From contig NZ_JANJOU010000006.1 of the NCBI RefSeq assembly GCF_024594815.1, forward strand, positions 1 through 64,000: 64,000 bases of DNA, read 5' to 3'. Source of the DNA: Roseomonas populi. Its GTDB lineage: Bacteria; Pseudomonadota; Alphaproteobacteria; Acetobacterales; Acetobacteraceae. Position 1 is the first letter of the stretch. Every line of letters starts with the position of its first letter. The translations under genes were made by a program, and so were the position numbers. The notes below the pieces were generated by a model, which made no database searches, was not told where the DNA came from, and worked only from the letters and a program-made list of their open reading frames with translations. Shown in pieces: positions 49,406-54,338 of the stretch.

Positions 49406-50506
49406 TCAGGCCGCCGTGGCGCCCGAGGGGGTGTTCGCGCCCTCGATCGCGGCGATCACCGCCCGCGTCACCGTCTCGGTGTCCGCCGTGCCGCCCAGGT
49501 CGGCCGTCAGCACGCCATCGGCGCAGACCCGCTCCACCGCAGCCATCAGGGCCTTCGCCGCGTCCCCCTCGCCCAGCTGCTCCAGCATCATCGCGCCGGT
49601 CCAGAAGGTGGCGACGGGATTGGCGACCCCCTTGCCCATGATGTCGAAGGCCGAGCCGTGGATCGGCTCGAACATCGAGGGCGCGCGGCGCGACGGATCG
49701 AGGTTCGCGGTCGGCGCCACGCCGAGTGAGCCCGCCACGGCTCCGGCGAGGTCCGAGAGGATGTCGGCGTGCAGGTTCGTCGCCACGACCGTGTCGATGC
49801 TGGCGGGCTTGCGCACCATGCGCGCAGCCATGGCGTCCACCAGCTCCTTCTCCCAGGTCACGTCCGGGTAGTCCTTCGCCACCAGCGCCGCGATGTCGTC
49901 CCACATCACCATGCCGTGGCGCTGCGCGTTGGACTTCGTCACCACCGTCAGAAGCTTGCGCGGGCGGCCGCGCGCGATGTCGAAGGCCACGCGCATGATC
50001 CGCTCCACGCCCGCGCGGGTGAAGATGGCGGTCTCCGTCGCCACCTCCTCCGGGTGGCCGCGATGGGCCCGCCCGCCATGGCCGGCATACTCGCCCTCGG
50101 AGTTCTCCCGCACGATTACCCAGTCGATGTCGCCCGGCTCCACCGCGCGCAACGGGCTGGTCAGACCCGGCAGCACCCGCGTGGGGCGGATATTCGCGTA
50201 CTGGTCGAAGCCCTGGCAGATCTTCAGCCGCAGTCCCCAGAGCGTGATGCTGTCCGGCAGTTCCGGGTCGCCCACCGCGCCGAAGTAGATGGCGTCGAAG
50301 CCGCGCAGCGTCTCCAGCCCGTCCTCGGGCATCATCTCGCCCTTCTCGCGGTAGTAGTCGCTGCCCCAGGGCAGCGTCTCCACCTCCAGGGAGAAGCCGC
50401 CGTCGCGCTTCGCCAGCGCCTCCAGCACCCGCAGCCCGGCGGGAATGACCTCCTTGCCGATCCCGTCCGCGGGAATGGCGGCAATCCGGTGCACGCGCTT
50501 GCTCAC
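49406..50506 (-). CDS. ttuC: Tartrate/D-malate dehydrogenase (isopropylmalate dehydrogenase family)
   Basis: A 366-residue NAD- and divalent-metal-dependent decarboxylating dehydrogenase. Marks are IPADGIGKEVIPAGLRVLEAL, DAIYFGAVGDP, the substrate stretch VIVRENSEGEYAGHGG, and VTKSNAQRHGMVMWDD with its catalytic Lys. The metal/NAD region is VVATNLHADILSDLAG, with FEPIHGSAFDIMGKG. Lack of leu genes and its neighbours (glycerate kinase, pyruvate kinase) favour tartrate or D-malate over isopropylmalate. It is divergent from a GntR-type regulator with only 53 bases between starts. Confidence 0.87.
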   Translation of the reverse strand: MSKRVHRIAAIPADGIGKEVIPAGLRVLEALAKRDGGFSLEVETLPWGSDYYREKGEMMPEDGLETLRGFDAIYFGAVGDPELPDSITLWGLRLKICQGFDQYANIRPTRVLPGLTSPLRAVEPGDIDWVIVRENSEGEYAGHGGRAHRGHPEEVATETAIFTRAGVERIMRVAFDIARGRPRKLLTVVTKSNAQRHGMVMWDDIAALVAKDYPDVTWEKELVDAMAARMVRKPASIDTVVATNLHADILSDLAGAVAGSLGVAPTANLDPSRRAPSMFEPIHGSAFDIMGKGVANPVATFWTGAMMLEQLGEGDAAKALMAAVERVCADGVLTADLGGTADTETVTRAVIAAIEGANTPSGATAA

Positions 50507-50559
50507 GATGAAATCCTTCCCTGTTGGAATATGCGGCGCCGGCTGGCATCCAGCGCCCG

Positions 50560-51255
50560 ATGAGCCAGGACCCGATCAAAGACGAAGGGGCGGCGCGCCC
50601 CAGCCTCGCCGAGTCCGCCTACCGCGCCCTGCGCGCCCGGCTGCTCGACATGAGCCTCGCCCCCGGCGACGAGGCGACAGAGGGCGACCTCGCCGCCGGC
50701 CTGGGCATGAGCCGCACCCCCGTCCACGAGGCCGTGCTGCGCCTGCAGTCCGAGGGCTTCCTGGCCGTACGTTCCCGCCGCGGCCTGCGCGTGCTGCCGA
50801 TCGACCCGGCGGGCATGGCCGAAACCTACGAGGTGCTGATCGCGCTCGAAGGCGCCGCCGCCGCGCGGCTTGCCGTCAACCCGAACGCCGGGGCCACCGC
50901 CGCCATGGCCCGCGCCACGGAAGCCATGCGCGCCGCCCTCTCCGCCGGGGACCGCCGCGCCTGGGCCGCGGCAGACGACGCGTTCCACCGCGCCCTCCTC
51001 CAGGGCTGCGGCAACGCGCGCCTCGCCCGCCTGGCGCAGGAGGCGGCCGACCTTGCCCAGCGCGCCCGATTCGCCACGGCCGCGCTGCGCCCGGAACCCG
51101 CCGGCTCCGCCGACGAGCACGCCCGCATCCTGTCCGCACTGGAGGGCGGCGACCCGGAGGCCGCCCGTGCCGCCGTCTCCGCGCACCGGCAGCGCGCGAG
51201 CGCGGAGATCCTGCGCACGCTCTCCCTGCCCCTGATGCGCCTCGGCGGCTCCTGA
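50560..51255 (+). CDS. GntR-family (FCD) transcriptional regulator
   Basis: A 231-residue regulator. The N-terminal winged helix is ESAYRALRARLLDMSLAPGDEATEGDLAAGLGMSRTPVHEAVLRLQSEGFL. The C-terminal all-helical FCD ligand domain has metal-site type residues in DDAFHRALLQ and EHARILSALEGGD. It lies between the divergent dehydrogenase gene and the downstream kinase gene, so it likely controls tartrate use. The ATG at 50560 is preferred; a TTG at 50524 would add 12 residues. A 12-bp tandem repeat after its stop may be its operator for the kinase promoter. Confidence 0.9.
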   Translation: MSQDPIKDEGAARPSLAESAYRALRARLLDMSLAPGDEATEGDLAAGLGMSRTPVHEAVLRLQSEGFLAVRSRRGLRVLPIDPAGMAETYEVLIALEGAAAARLAVNPNAGATAAMARATEAMRAALSAGDRRAWAAADDAFHRALLQGCGNARLARLAQEAADLAQRARFATAALRPEPAGSADEHARILSALEGGDPEAARAAVSAHRQRASAEILRTLSLPLMRLGGS

Positions 51256-51287
51256 CGGCACGGCCCCTCCTCCCGAGCCCCTTCTTC

Positions 51288-51310
51288 CATACCACCAAGC
51301 ATACCACAAG
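51288..51310 (+). promoter_or_regulatory. Tandem repeat upstream of the glycerate kinase gene
   Basis: CATACCAC at 51288-51295 is repeated at 51300-51307, a 12-bp period, each followed by CAAG or AAG. It lies 60 bases before the kinase TTG, a fitting place for a GntR-family operator. Confidence 0.45.
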
Positions 51311-51366
51311 CCTCTTGCCGCGCCCGCGCCCGCCGCCATGATGCGCGCCGCCGGGGAGGACCGAAC

Positions 51367-52647
51367 TTGACCGACTGGAACGACAGCCGCGCCCGCGACG
51401 CCCTGCGCCGCCTCTTCGACGCCGCCGTCCGCAGCGCCGATCCCCGCGCCATCCTGAAGGACTTCCTGCCGGAGAGGCCGAAGGGCCGCGTGGTCGTGGT
51501 GGGCGCTGGCAAGTCCTCCGCCGTCATGGCAGCGGCGCTTGAGGATGCCTGGCCCGACGTTCCGATGACCGGCCTCGTCGTCACCCGATACGGCCACGCC
51601 GTGCCCACCCGGCACATCGAGGTGCTGGAAGCCTCCCACCCCGTTCCCGACGCAGCCGGCGAGGTTGCCGCTCGCCGCATCCTGCAGGCCGTCGGGGGCC
51701 TGGCGGAGGATGACCTCGTCCTCGCCCTCATCTCCGGCGGCGGCTCCGCCCTCATGCCGCTGGCCGCCCCCGGCCTGACCCTGGCGGACAAGCAGGCCGT
51801 CAACCGCGCCCTGCTGGCCTGCGGCGCCACCATCAACGAGATGAACGTCCTTCGCCGCCACCTCTCCGCCATCAAGGGCGGGCGCCTCGCGGCGGCGGCG
51901 CATCCCGCTCGCATGGTCACCCTCGCCATCTCGGATGTCCCCGGCGACGACCCGGCCGCTATCGCCTCCGGCCCAACCGTCCCGGACCCCAGCAGCTTCG
52001 AGGACGCGCGGCGCATCGTCGCCCGCTACGGCATCGACCTTCCCGCCCCCGTCCGCGCCCATCTGGAGGCGGCGGAGGAGGAAACCCCCAAGCCCGGCGA
52101 CCCGCGCCTCGCCCGCGCCGAGTACCGCCTGATCGCCACCCCCCTCATGGCCCTTCAGGCCGCCGCGAGAGAGGCGGAGGCGCTGGGCCTCGCCCCCCTC
52201 ATCCTCGGGGACGCGCTGGAAGGCGAGGCGCGGGAGGTCGGAACCCTCCTCGCCGGCATCGCCCGTTCCGTCGCTGCCCACGGCCAGCCGGTGGCCGGGC
52301 CCGCCGTCCTCCTCTCGGGCGGCGAGACCACGGTCACCCTCGGCGGTGCAAAGGGCGCGGGCGGCCGCAACGGCGAGTGCCTCCTCGGCCTCACCGCAGC
52401 CCTGGGCGGCCATCCCGGGATCTGGGCGCTGATGGGCGACACGGACGGGATCGACGGCGCCATGGACAATGCCGGCGCCATCGCCGCCCCGGATACCCTG
52501 TCCCGCAGCCGCGCCGCCGGCATGGATCCGATTGCGGCCTTGCACGCCCACCGCAGCCACGACGTCTTCAGGGTTCTGGACGACCTCGTCACCACCGGCC
52601 CCACCTTGACGAACGTCAACGACTTCCGGGCCATCATCATAGCTTAA
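51367..52647 (+). CDS. ttuD: Glycerate 2-kinase (MOFRL family)
   Basis: A 426-residue kinase that phosphorylates D-glycerate to 2-phosphoglycerate. Marks are VVVVGAGKSSAVMAAALE, ASHPVPDAAGE, LVLALISGGGSALMPLAAPG, INEMNVLRRHLSAIKGGRLA, ISDVPGDDPAAIASGPTVPD and the MOFRL end GGRNGECLLG with MGDTDGIDG. TTG start at 51367 after GAGGA. The product feeds enolase and then the pyruvate kinase encoded next. In tartrate loci of the ttu type this gene was first called a hydroxypyruvate reductase; sequence supports the kinase. Confidence 0.92.
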   Translation: MTDWNDSRARDALRRLFDAAVRSADPRAILKDFLPERPKGRVVVVGAGKSSAVMAAALEDAWPDVPMTGLVVTRYGHAVPTRHIEVLEASHPVPDAAGEVAARRILQAVGGLAEDDLVLALISGGGSALMPLAAPGLTLADKQAVNRALLACGATINEMNVLRRHLSAIKGGRLAAAAHPARMVTLAISDVPGDDPAAIASGPTVPDPSSFEDARRIVARYGIDLPAPVRAHLEAAEEETPKPGDPRLARAEYRLIATPLMALQAAAREAEALGLAPLILGDALEGEAREVGTLLAGIARSVAAHGQPVAGPAVLLSGGETTVTLGGAKGAGGRNGECLLGLTAALGGHPGIWALMGDTDGIDGAMDNAGAIAAPDTLSRSRAAGMDPIAALHAHRSHDVFRVLDDLVTTGPTLTNVNDFRAIIIA

Positions 52648-52682
52648 TAAATATAAGTCCGAAGGCCCTCGCATATGTAACT

Positions 52683-52704
52683 TAGGGCGCCTAACTTCGC
52701 CCTA
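52683..52704. promoter_or_regulatory. Palindrome abutting the HTH-pyruvate kinase start
   Basis: TAGGGCG-N8-CGCCCTA is a perfect 7-bp inverted repeat whose last base is the A of the ATG. It overlaps a second repeat TTAGG-GCG-CCTAA. Upstream lies an unusually AT-rich patch (52640-52680) with a possible -10 (TATGTA). A dimeric HTH protein bound here would block translation start and transcription. Confidence 0.6.
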
Positions 52705-54338
52705 TGCGCGACAAGCTCCTCGAAGACCTTCTCGCCCGCCGTGGCGCCGTCACCCGGATCGCCACCGGGCTCGGCATCTCCACCGCCGCTGTCTCCCAGT
52801 GGCGCCGCGTCCCCCCGGAGCGCGTGGAGGAGGTGGCCCGGATCATGGAGGTCCCGCCCGAAACCCTCCGCCGCCCGGTATTCGAGCAGATAGGAGGCCC
52901 CCGCTTGGCCAGCCGCATCCCCATCCGCCGCCGCCGCCGCACGAAGATGATCGCCACCCTCGGCCCGGCCAGCGCCGACCCGCAGGTGATCGAGCGGCTG
53001 TTCCGCGCCGGCGCCGACGTCTTCCGCCTCAACTTCTCCCACGGCAGCCACGAGGATCACGCCGCCCGTATCGCCACCATCCGCGAGATCGAGCGCCGCA
53101 CCGGCCGCCCCATCGGCATCCTGGCGGATGTCCAGGGCCCGAAGCTCCGCGTCGGCAAGTTCGGCGGCGGCCGCGTCCAGCTCCAGCAGGGCCAGTCCTT
53201 CCGCCTGGACCTCTCCCCCGTGCCCGGTGACGTGCGGCGCGTGCAGCTGCCCCACCCCGAGATCATCGCCGCCGCCCGCATCGGCACCACCCTGCTGCTG
53301 GATGACGGCAAGCTTCGCCTCGGCGTCGTTCGCCAGCGCGACGACCACCTGGAGACGGAAGTCCTCGTCGGCGGCGCCCTGTCCGACCGCAAGGGCGTGA
53401 ACGTGCCGGACGTGGTGCTGCCCATCCCCGCACTAACGGAGAAGGACCGCGCCGACCTCGACTTCGTGCTGGAGCAGGGCGTGGAGTTCATCGGCCTCTC
53501 CTTCGTCCAGCGCCCGGAGGACGTGGCCGAGGCCAAGGCCATCGCCAACGGCCGCGCCTGGATCATGGTGAAGATGGAGAAGCCACAGGCGGTGGAGCGG
53601 ATGGACGACATCCTCGACATCGCCGATGCCGTGATGGTCGCGCGCGGCGACCTCGGCGTGGAGTGCCCGCCGGAGGAGGTGCCGCTGATCCAGAAGCGCA
53701 TCGTCCGCGCCGCCCGCACCCGCGGCCTGCCCGTGGTGGTGGCCACCCAGATGCTGGAGAGCATGATCTCCGCACCCACGCCCACCCGCGCGGAGGCGTC
53801 CGACGTGGCGACCGCGGTGTTCGACGGCGCCGATGCCGTCATGCTCTCCGCCGAGACCGCGGCCGGCAGCTACCCCTACGAGGCGGTGAACATCATGGAC
53901 CGCATCGTCGCCCGGACCGAGCAGGACCCGGGCTGGCGCGCCATCACCGACAACAACCGCCCGGAGCCGCGCCACACCTCCTCCGACGCCATCGCCGCCG
54001 CCGCGCGCCAGGTGGCCAGCACCATCGACGCCGAGGCGATCGGCGCCTTCACCTCCACCGGCTCCACCGTGCTGCGCGTGGCACGGGAACGCCCCGCCGC
54101 CCCCATCATCGGCATGACGGCGAACGAGCGCACGGCACGCCGCCTCGCCCTCGTCTGGGGCGTGCATCCCGTGCTGAGCAAGGAACCGGCGAGCATGACG
54201 GACATGGTCGCCAAGGGCGTCCGCGCCGCGGCGAGCGAGGGCTTCGCGACCACCGGGGACGAGGTGGTGGTGGTCGCCGGCGTCCCCTTCGGCACGCCCG
54301 GCACCACCAACGCGCTGCGCGTGGCGGTCGTGGAGTAG
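52704..54338 (+). CDS. pyk: Pyruvate kinase with N-terminal YdaS/Cro-like helix-turn-helix
   Basis: A single 544-residue frame. Residues 1-60 read as a YdaS/Cro-type HTH: GAVTRIATGLGISTAAVSQW, then RRVPPERVEEVARIMEVPPETLRR. Residues 75-544 are a complete pyruvate kinase (normal length about 475): TKMIATLGPAS, FRLNFSHGSHEDH, DVQGPKLR, LSFVQRPEDV, VKMEKPQAV with catalytic Lys, MVARGDLGVE, ATQMLESM, TRAEASDVATAVFDGADAVMLSAETAAG, and the C-terminal domain. A TTG at 52905 (L68) with perfect GGAGG would give the enzyme alone. It makes pyruvate and ATP, and corresponds to ttuE of tartrate loci. The HTH may sense flux or autoregulate; this is inference. Confidence 0.9.
   Translation: MRDKLLEDLLARRGAVTRIATGLGISTAAVSQWRRVPPERVEEVARIMEVPPETLRRPVFEQIGGPRLASRIPIRRRRRTKMIATLGPASADPQVIERLFRAGADVFRLNFSHGSHEDHAARIATIREIERRTGRPIGILADVQGPKLRVGKFGGGRVQLQQGQSFRLDLSPVPGDVRRVQLPHPEIIAAARIGTTLLLDDGKLRLGVVRQRDDHLETEVLVGGALSDRKGVNVPDVVLPIPALTEKDRADLDFVLEQGVEFIGLSFVQRPEDVAEAKAIANGRAWIMVKMEKPQAVERMDDILDIADAVMVARGDLGVECPPEEVPLIQKRIVRAARTRGLPVVVATQMLESMISAPTPTRAEASDVATAVFDGADAVMLSAETAAGSYPYEAVNIMDRIVARTEQDPGWRAITDNNRPEPRHTSSDAIAAAARQVASTIDAEAIGAFTSTGSTVLRVARERPAAPIIGMTANERTARRLALVWGVHPVLSKEPASMTDMVAKGVRAAASEGFATTGDEVVVVAGVPFGTPGTTNALRVAVVE
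52893..52907 (+). promoter_or_regulatory. Internal ribosome site and TTG start within pyk
   Basis: GGAGG at 52893-52897, a 7-base spacer and in-frame TTG at 52905 would start a 477-residue protein (ASRIPIRRRRRTKMIATLGP) matching an ordinary pyruvate kinase. It is better placed than any site before the ATG at 52704. Confidence 0.6.

Follow-up and report, generated by a model that had tools for sequence, protein, structure and literature searches.

Does a pyruvate kinase that begins with a DNA-binding-type domain control its own gene? One open reading frame in the window analyzed here, a stretch of 64,000 nt at the start of a Roseomonas populi contig (NZ_JANJOU010000006.1), raises this question. 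The initial annotation had read the frame as a helix-turn-helix (HTH) domain fused to a full pyruvate kinase (PK) and had suggested that such an enzyme might regulate its own transcription. From the comparative data presented below, we consider it probable that the gene encodes an autogenous regulator-enzyme, the HTHs of which bind dyads in its own promoter and thereby likely repress the pyruvate kinase gene (pyk).

A pyruvate kinase with a helix-turn-helix head

The frame (52704 to 54338, plus strand) starts with ATG, is open from end to end, and encodes 544 amino acids, so that an enzyme and a DNA-binding-type domain lie in one chain, as had been claimed. Residues 1 to 60 (52704 to 52883, plus strand), including the segment STAAVSQW, form an HTH of the P22-Cro/YdaS type by Pfam and by profile relatives in the PDB. 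A linker that evolves fast in Roseomonas and then the basic stretch RIPIRRRRR follow (52884 to 52934), and the barrel and C-terminal domains of PK, recognized by Pfam and NCBIfam, occupy 52935 to 54335 on the same strand. With the whole protein, Pfam places the PK barrel (PF00224) at residues 78 to 395 with 366 bits and PK_C (PF02887) at residues 428 to 540 with 126 bits, both domains being complete and above their curated cut-offs, and the NCBIfam pyruvate kinase model PRK06247.1 scores 687.5 bits from residue 75 (cut-off, 623). The proposed assignment of the head to the YdaS/Cro group also proved right: P22_Cro reaches 32.6 bits with residues 1 to 67 alone, above its cut-off of 30.2, and 28.3 bits, slightly below it, in the full-length protein, while YdaS_toxin, at 27.1 bits for residues 1 to 67, does not reach its cut-off of 30. 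By sequence profile, the chains of known structure closest to the head are 3bd1 (Cro, 2.7e-7) and 1rzs (P22 Cro, 2.3e-6), with 5w8y also matched. Ordinary PK structures such as PDB 7oo1 share the barrel and C-terminal domain with the fused protein over residues 78 to 543 but differ in the head, as none of the best 60 of 105 PDB matches aligns to residues 1 to 72. Across 24 diverse fused proteins, M1, R2, D3, and AAVSQW are invariant in the head, and RLNFSHG, MVK.EKP, and MVARGDLGVE, which we take to be PK active-site segments, are invariant in the enzyme.

The fusion is not confined to this genome. Matches to residues 1 to 67 at E up to 1e-3 occur in 125 of 397 Acetobacteraceae genomes, and reading of the junction DNA placed the head in frame with PK in at least 68 of the 397, from 13 genera, a count that is a lower bound since at most 15 candidates per genome were scored in that search. 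At 441 and 453 amino acids, the PK frame is short in two of the 68. Not one of the 68 has a stop between head and PK, the arrangement as a separate HTH gene that the initial annotation had named as the outcome that would speak against a fusion. At E up to 1e-14, 71 head matches were found, of which 68 are PK fused and three stand alone (G170, G177, and G364), with no PK anchor in the 2.8 kb around these three. A separate HTH gene mis-joined to pyk is thus ruled out. Within Roseomonas, the genus of the window, 11 of 15 genomes carry the fusion; the other four (G003, G004, G011, and G013) have a plain PK without the HTH head.

Wider searches gave the same picture. A scan of 84,980 genomes, one per species, with the HTH alignment confirmed 83 relatives, and the best 80 of these 83 are all PK fused, a proportion that favors this exact HTH segment because a single peptide pattern was used. 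By their identical sequence starts, 50 of these 80 loci were already among the 68. The 80 come from Roseomonas, Pararoseomonas, Falsiroseomonas, Neoroseomonas, Paeniroseomonas, Plastoroseomonas, Belnapia, Siccirubricoccus, Roseococcus, Rubritepida, Craurococcus, and Humitalea, as well as from metagenome bins. At the level of the class, the HTH profile has matches (E up to 1e-5) in 8 of 337 genomes, and among these eight matches, only the window's own is PK fused.

The head evolves under purifying selection. Its dN/dS, pooled within each set, is 0.056 for the three closest genomes, 0.169 for all 11 fused genomes of Roseomonas, and 0.189, 0.235, 0.126, 0.096, and 0.173 in five other genera, values that cover seven sets from 6 of the 13 genera (with 8 of 12 members for g118). 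The PK barrel of these sets gives 0.052 to 0.156. The linker, by comparison, has a dN/dS of about 1.0 over residues 61 to 74 in the genus set. Together with the conservation in 68 genomes, these ratios rule out a chance open frame or a sequencing error.

Is the fused protein the enzyme of the cell? In R. populi, the fused gene is the sole PF00224 match in the genome. The same holds for 63 of the 68 fused genomes, an upper bound since at most five candidates were scored per genome; two matches were found in G001, G006, G012, G044, and G092. Since the fusion supplies the only match in most of these genomes, we regard it as presumably a working PK. The start codons at the junction bear on the same point. 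Between 32 and 5 codons before the TLGP motif, a start codon is accompanied by four or more Shine-Dalgarno bases in 28 of the 68 loci and lacks such a sequence in 35, and 5 loci have no ATG, GTG, or TTG at all. At the ancestral position of the PK start, the codon is gone in 19 of 68, one of which (L047) is merely shifted by one codon, leaving 18 losses, two of them reading CTG. All but one of these 18 genomes (the exception being G044) have a single PF00224 match, as do all five without any junction start codon. With no start left in the junction, the fused protein must supply the cell's PK there.

In the window, the ancestral start survives: an internal Shine-Dalgarno sequence, AGGAGG (52892 to 52897, plus strand), precedes a TTG (52905 to 52907) that would give a PK of 477 amino acids. 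R. populi may therefore also make plain PK, so that the protein could exist in a long and a short form. The pair of AGGAG or AGGAGG and an in-frame TTG or ATG at 7 to 8 nt is kept in all 11 fused genomes of the genus, where the short form is likely and where much of the PK may be of this kind. The type strain Roseomonas rosea DSM 14916 is one that retains the internal start. This opens the way for a division of labor in the window's genus, in which the internal start makes much plain PK while the HTH-PK joins mixed tetramers as a less abundant, regulatory form. Besides the 11 of 11 conservation and the 28 loci with a Shine-Dalgarno sequence at the junction start, the low synonymous change in the linker of the genus and the scarcity of four-base Shine-Dalgarno sequences before the head start (missing in 66 of 68 loci) speak for such a scheme. 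The retained start may, however, be a relic, and the loss of the ancestral start in 18 of 68 makes the short form from it dispensable in those genomes. We would put this division of labor at slightly less than an even bet. It is compatible with autogenous regulation by the fused protein rather than exclusive of it.

Paired dyads before the fused gene

Two operator-like dyads of the form CTTA-N7-TAAG precede the fused gene in R. populi. The first, CTTAATAAATATAAG (52643 to 52657), matches all eight defined positions and overlaps the stop codon that closes the glycerate-kinase-type gene upstream; the second, CTTAGGGCGCCTAAC (52681 to 52695), matches seven of eight, begins 23 bp before the ATG, and would overlap the -10 box. 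They lie 38 bp apart, within the 38 to 40 bp seen across the genus. Taking the best score within fixed stretches (-27 to -19 for the proximal and -72 to -55 for the distal site), we found that the 15-bp proximal dyad, 23 or 24 bp before the ATG, reaches 7/8 or better in 62 of the 68 fused loci (8/8 in 46), and the distal dyad does so in 47. Both are present in 43 loci, with start-to-start distances of 37 to 42 bp, 41 bp being the spacing in 22 of them. While 41 bp is close to a whole number of helical turns, the 38 to 40 bp of the genus correspond to about 3.6 to 3.8 turns. A 7/8 match is missing at the proximal site in 6 loci and at the distal one in 21, and two fused loci (L096 and L100) have no 7/8 dyad, so that a two-site scheme is not universal.

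The position of the dyads goes together with the fusion. Over the 320 nt that precede the PK domain, the best score of the fused genes is 8/8 in 61 cases, 7/8 in 5, and 6/8 in 2, whereas none of 34 unfused PK genes exceeds 6/8 in a stretch of the same length. These 34, drawn from the few hundred available, comprise 29 from the family and 5 from other families and include four genomes of the window's genus and four of g60. Of 1,360 shuffled fused upstream sequences, 37 reached 7/8.

Genome-wide counts point in the same direction. Of 397 genomes, 26 contain the exact double dyad, which stands at the fused pyk in 25 of them and at another place in G322; its reversed counterpart, used as a control, occurs in one genome of the 397. 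Exact single dyads number 0 to 4 per genome in the genus, against 4 to 30 for the reversed control, and 0 to 6 against 3 to 34 in 53 other fused genomes; the unfused G003 and G004 have two each. As a control, the reversed pattern has a weakness: CTTA and TAAG contain triplets that act as stop codons and are avoided in GC-rich coding DNA, and the low counts owe something to this rarity of TTA and TAA. The comparison between fused and unfused promoters is the stronger evidence, and these conserved putative operators make the autoregulation put forward in the initial annotation very probable.

The dyads also allow a tentative reading of the promoter. In the 43 loci with both sites, the right half of the proximal dyad and an almost fixed T (at +16 of the dyad in 36 of 43) read TAAGnT, and positions 15 to 10 nt upstream of that dyad favor C-C-x-T-x-G. 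On these conserved columns, the -10 element in the window would be TAACTT (52692 to 52697, plus strand), and a TTGGCA-like -35 box would lie 18 nt before it, clear in L053 and weak in the window; a general sigma-70 scan did not list the TAACTT promoter. The TAAG of the proximal dyad could in part be retained as a -10 box, an explanation that does not extend to its CTTA or to the distal dyad. All 68 fused loci have an ATG at the start of the head, and a four-base Shine-Dalgarno sequence precedes it in only 2, as expected for a leaderless mRNA. Transcription would start at or next to the ATG.

Autogenous control and its alternatives

Considering the conserved fusion, the selection on its head, and the place of the dyads, we propose the following model. 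The N-terminal HTHs of a working PK would bind one or two CTTA-N7-TAAG dyads in the promoter of their own gene. Occupancy of the proximal dyad would cover the probable -10 box and the start of transcription, block the polymerase, and repress pyk, a negative feedback on the amount of PK. It is because the proximal dyad covers this region that repression is the likelier sign. PK normally forms tetramers, and since it does, one enzyme could offer two HTH pairs to two dyads and might bridge them. In the window's genus, the internal start would probably supply plain PK alongside the regulatory form.

The model can be extended to the signal. In this scenario, the allosteric state of PK, set by phosphoenolpyruvate, a sugar phosphate, or a nucleotide, determines the spacing of the four Cro-like heads and thereby whether they grip or release the dyads, so that glycolytic flux sets the transcription of pyk. 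We offer this extension tentatively, as a possibility that we would sooner doubt than adopt. A self-regulating PK, conserved in 13 or more genera together with candidate operators, would serve as a natural, compact sensor and as a clean test of whether transcription can directly report the allosteric states of a glycolytic enzyme, with the unfused G003, G004, G011, and G013 of the same genus as ready-made controls.

The sign of the regulation could also be the opposite one. Forty-seven of the 68 loci have a distal dyad on the upstream side of the predicted -35 region, and a protein bound there might recruit polymerase and raise its own transcription. The proximal dyad is better conserved, though (62 of 68), and it is this site that covers the inferred -10 and start region; the palindrome of the stand-alone relatives described below sits in the same place in 7 of 9 cases, and Cro proteins are repressors. 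An activator is for these reasons improbable.

We find it still harder to accept that the head merely parks or localizes the enzyme, or makes protein-protein contacts, while the dyads belong to another regulator. The few dyads elsewhere in the genomes, including two unfused ones, would agree with a separate regulator, but the lack of a 7/8 dyad before the 34 unfused pyk genes and the similar palindromes before 7 of 9 stand-alone heads make this very unlikely. As for an annotation artefact, in which the HTH part is untranslated or open by chance owing to the high GC content and the short PK is the sole genuine product, a good internal Shine-Dalgarno sequence and start in the window would suit it, but it is scarcely credible given the purifying selection on the HTH, the ATG and open frame in 68 of 68 loci, the ancestral start lost in 18, and dyads that accompany the HTH and are absent before the 34 unfused genes.

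How does the autogenous regulator-enzyme that we favor compare with known systems? Few enzymes are known to regulate their own genes by means of a DNA-binding head in the same chain, and presumably PutA is the best-known case. Trifunctional PutA of enteric bacteria is a metabolic enzyme whose N-terminal domain binds DNA and represses the gene that encodes it (PMC5293562). The HTH-PK resembles it in combining a metabolic enzyme and an N-terminal DNA-binding-type domain in one chain and in its predicted autogenous role, but PutA has a ribbon-helix-helix, oxidizes proline, and switches to the membrane, whereas the protein described here carries a Cro-like HTH on a pyruvate kinase, for which switching is a conjecture. 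A second comparison is BzdR, a dedicated regulator that joins an XRE-type HTH to a shikimate-kinase-like domain and recognizes benzoyl-CoA, with enzyme activity lost in the authors' model (PMC3602430). It shares with the HTH-PK the order of a bacterial HTH before an enzyme-like kinase domain; the difference is that the HTH-PK keeps the PK segments and is the sole PF00224 match in at most 63 of 68 genomes.

The P22-type Cro/YdaS proteins belong to the same sequence family as the head, but the PDB-matched Cro chains are separate proteins of about 60 to 80 amino acids, and the domain is here the head of a housekeeping enzyme. An HTH-pyruvate kinase was not found in the open-access literature, in line with the initial annotation, which knew of no described case.

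Origin of the head and its surroundings

The stand-alone HTH relatives share the layout of the fused gene. In 7 of 9, two near-identical pairs among them, a TTA-N7-TAA palindrome starts 22 to 23 nt before the ATG; background pieces of 40 nt contain this pattern in 17 of 574 cases. Because these relatives have their palindrome in the same place, the head and its operator-promoter may have been captured together before pyk. We therefore picture a phage-Cro-like autoregulatory gene, probably with its operator-promoter, that an ancestor within the Roseomonas group would have acquired in front of pyk and joined to it in frame.

A strict single clade of fused genes is nevertheless rejected on the PK-domain tree (p-AU 0.0005), and unfused genes of g1 and g60 sit among the fused ones, so that losses or transfers are needed. 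The fused state requires 6 changes over 102 rows, compared with a mean of 28.6 after shuffling, and 5 over a 92-row tree that omits eight long or outgroup rows and two short fused rows. Because head, start, and dyads are alike throughout, we read this as one origin followed by losses of head and dyads together, although transfers may have played a part. On well-supported branches, two independent pairs show joint loss of head and dyad; they agree in direction but are too few for significance.

Two plus-strand genes, one of the glycerate kinase type (PF13660/PF05161) and one for a GntR/FCD regulator, lie upstream of the fused gene; in the same neighborhood, an Iso_dh-family dehydrogenase and a TctC receptor are encoded on the minus strand. 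The dehydrogenase (called a tartrate dehydrogenase in the initial annotation), the divergent regulator, and the glycerate-kinase-type gene together span 49406 to 52647 and adjoin the HTH-PK. The initial annotation had placed the fused gene at the end of a tartrate/glycerate pathway. The glycerate-kinase-type neighbor is real, but a special tie to tartrate is not shown, because a glycerate kinase C-terminal motif lies no more than 400 nt upstream in just 43 of the 68 fused loci and such a gene also precedes some unfused PKs (L021 and L022).

We also considered a wider glycolytic regulon. In three genomes (G000, G014, and G012), a full CTTA-N7-TAAG lies 57 to 58 bp upstream of a gene that by eye resembles class II fructose-bisphosphate aldolase, at 1501 in loci L126 and L128 and, in L148 of G012, on the minus strand 58 bp before the gene. 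No 7/8 dyad precedes the aldolase-like gene in G006, G002, and G010 (L149 to L151), and a search of 30 fused genomes detected the gene itself in just 6, each of them one of the 7 searched from the genus. A conserved second target is thus not borne out, the aldolase dyad being confined to three near relatives.

The head is also found on other proteins. In L105, L110, L112, and L113, all from the family, the HTH module heads a CcdA-type antitoxin (in L105, Pfam gives 66 bits for CcdA and 43 bits for YdaS; the others were named by eye). In L114, L232, L233, L234, and L236, it heads a TorD/NarJ-like chaperone (PF02613 at 91.5 bits in L114; the others by eye), those from L232 onward belonging to other alphaproteobacterial families. 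In a single case, L235 (minus strand, 588 amino acids), a related HTH is in frame with what appears by eye to be a bifunctional NAD(P)HX epimerase/dehydratase. The occurrence of the same head on CcdA-type, chaperone, and NAD(P)HX-repair-like proteins suggests a portable module. At 11 loci where the head sits on another protein (CcdA-type, chaperone, and others), TTA-N7-TAA is absent before the start in every case. The notion that the head carries its operator wherever it goes thus holds for the stand-alone heads (7 of 9) but for not one of these 11. The window's genome itself holds a second, diverged Cro/YdaS-like HTH in a frame of 129 amino acids (L111; G000:C34:375034-375186).
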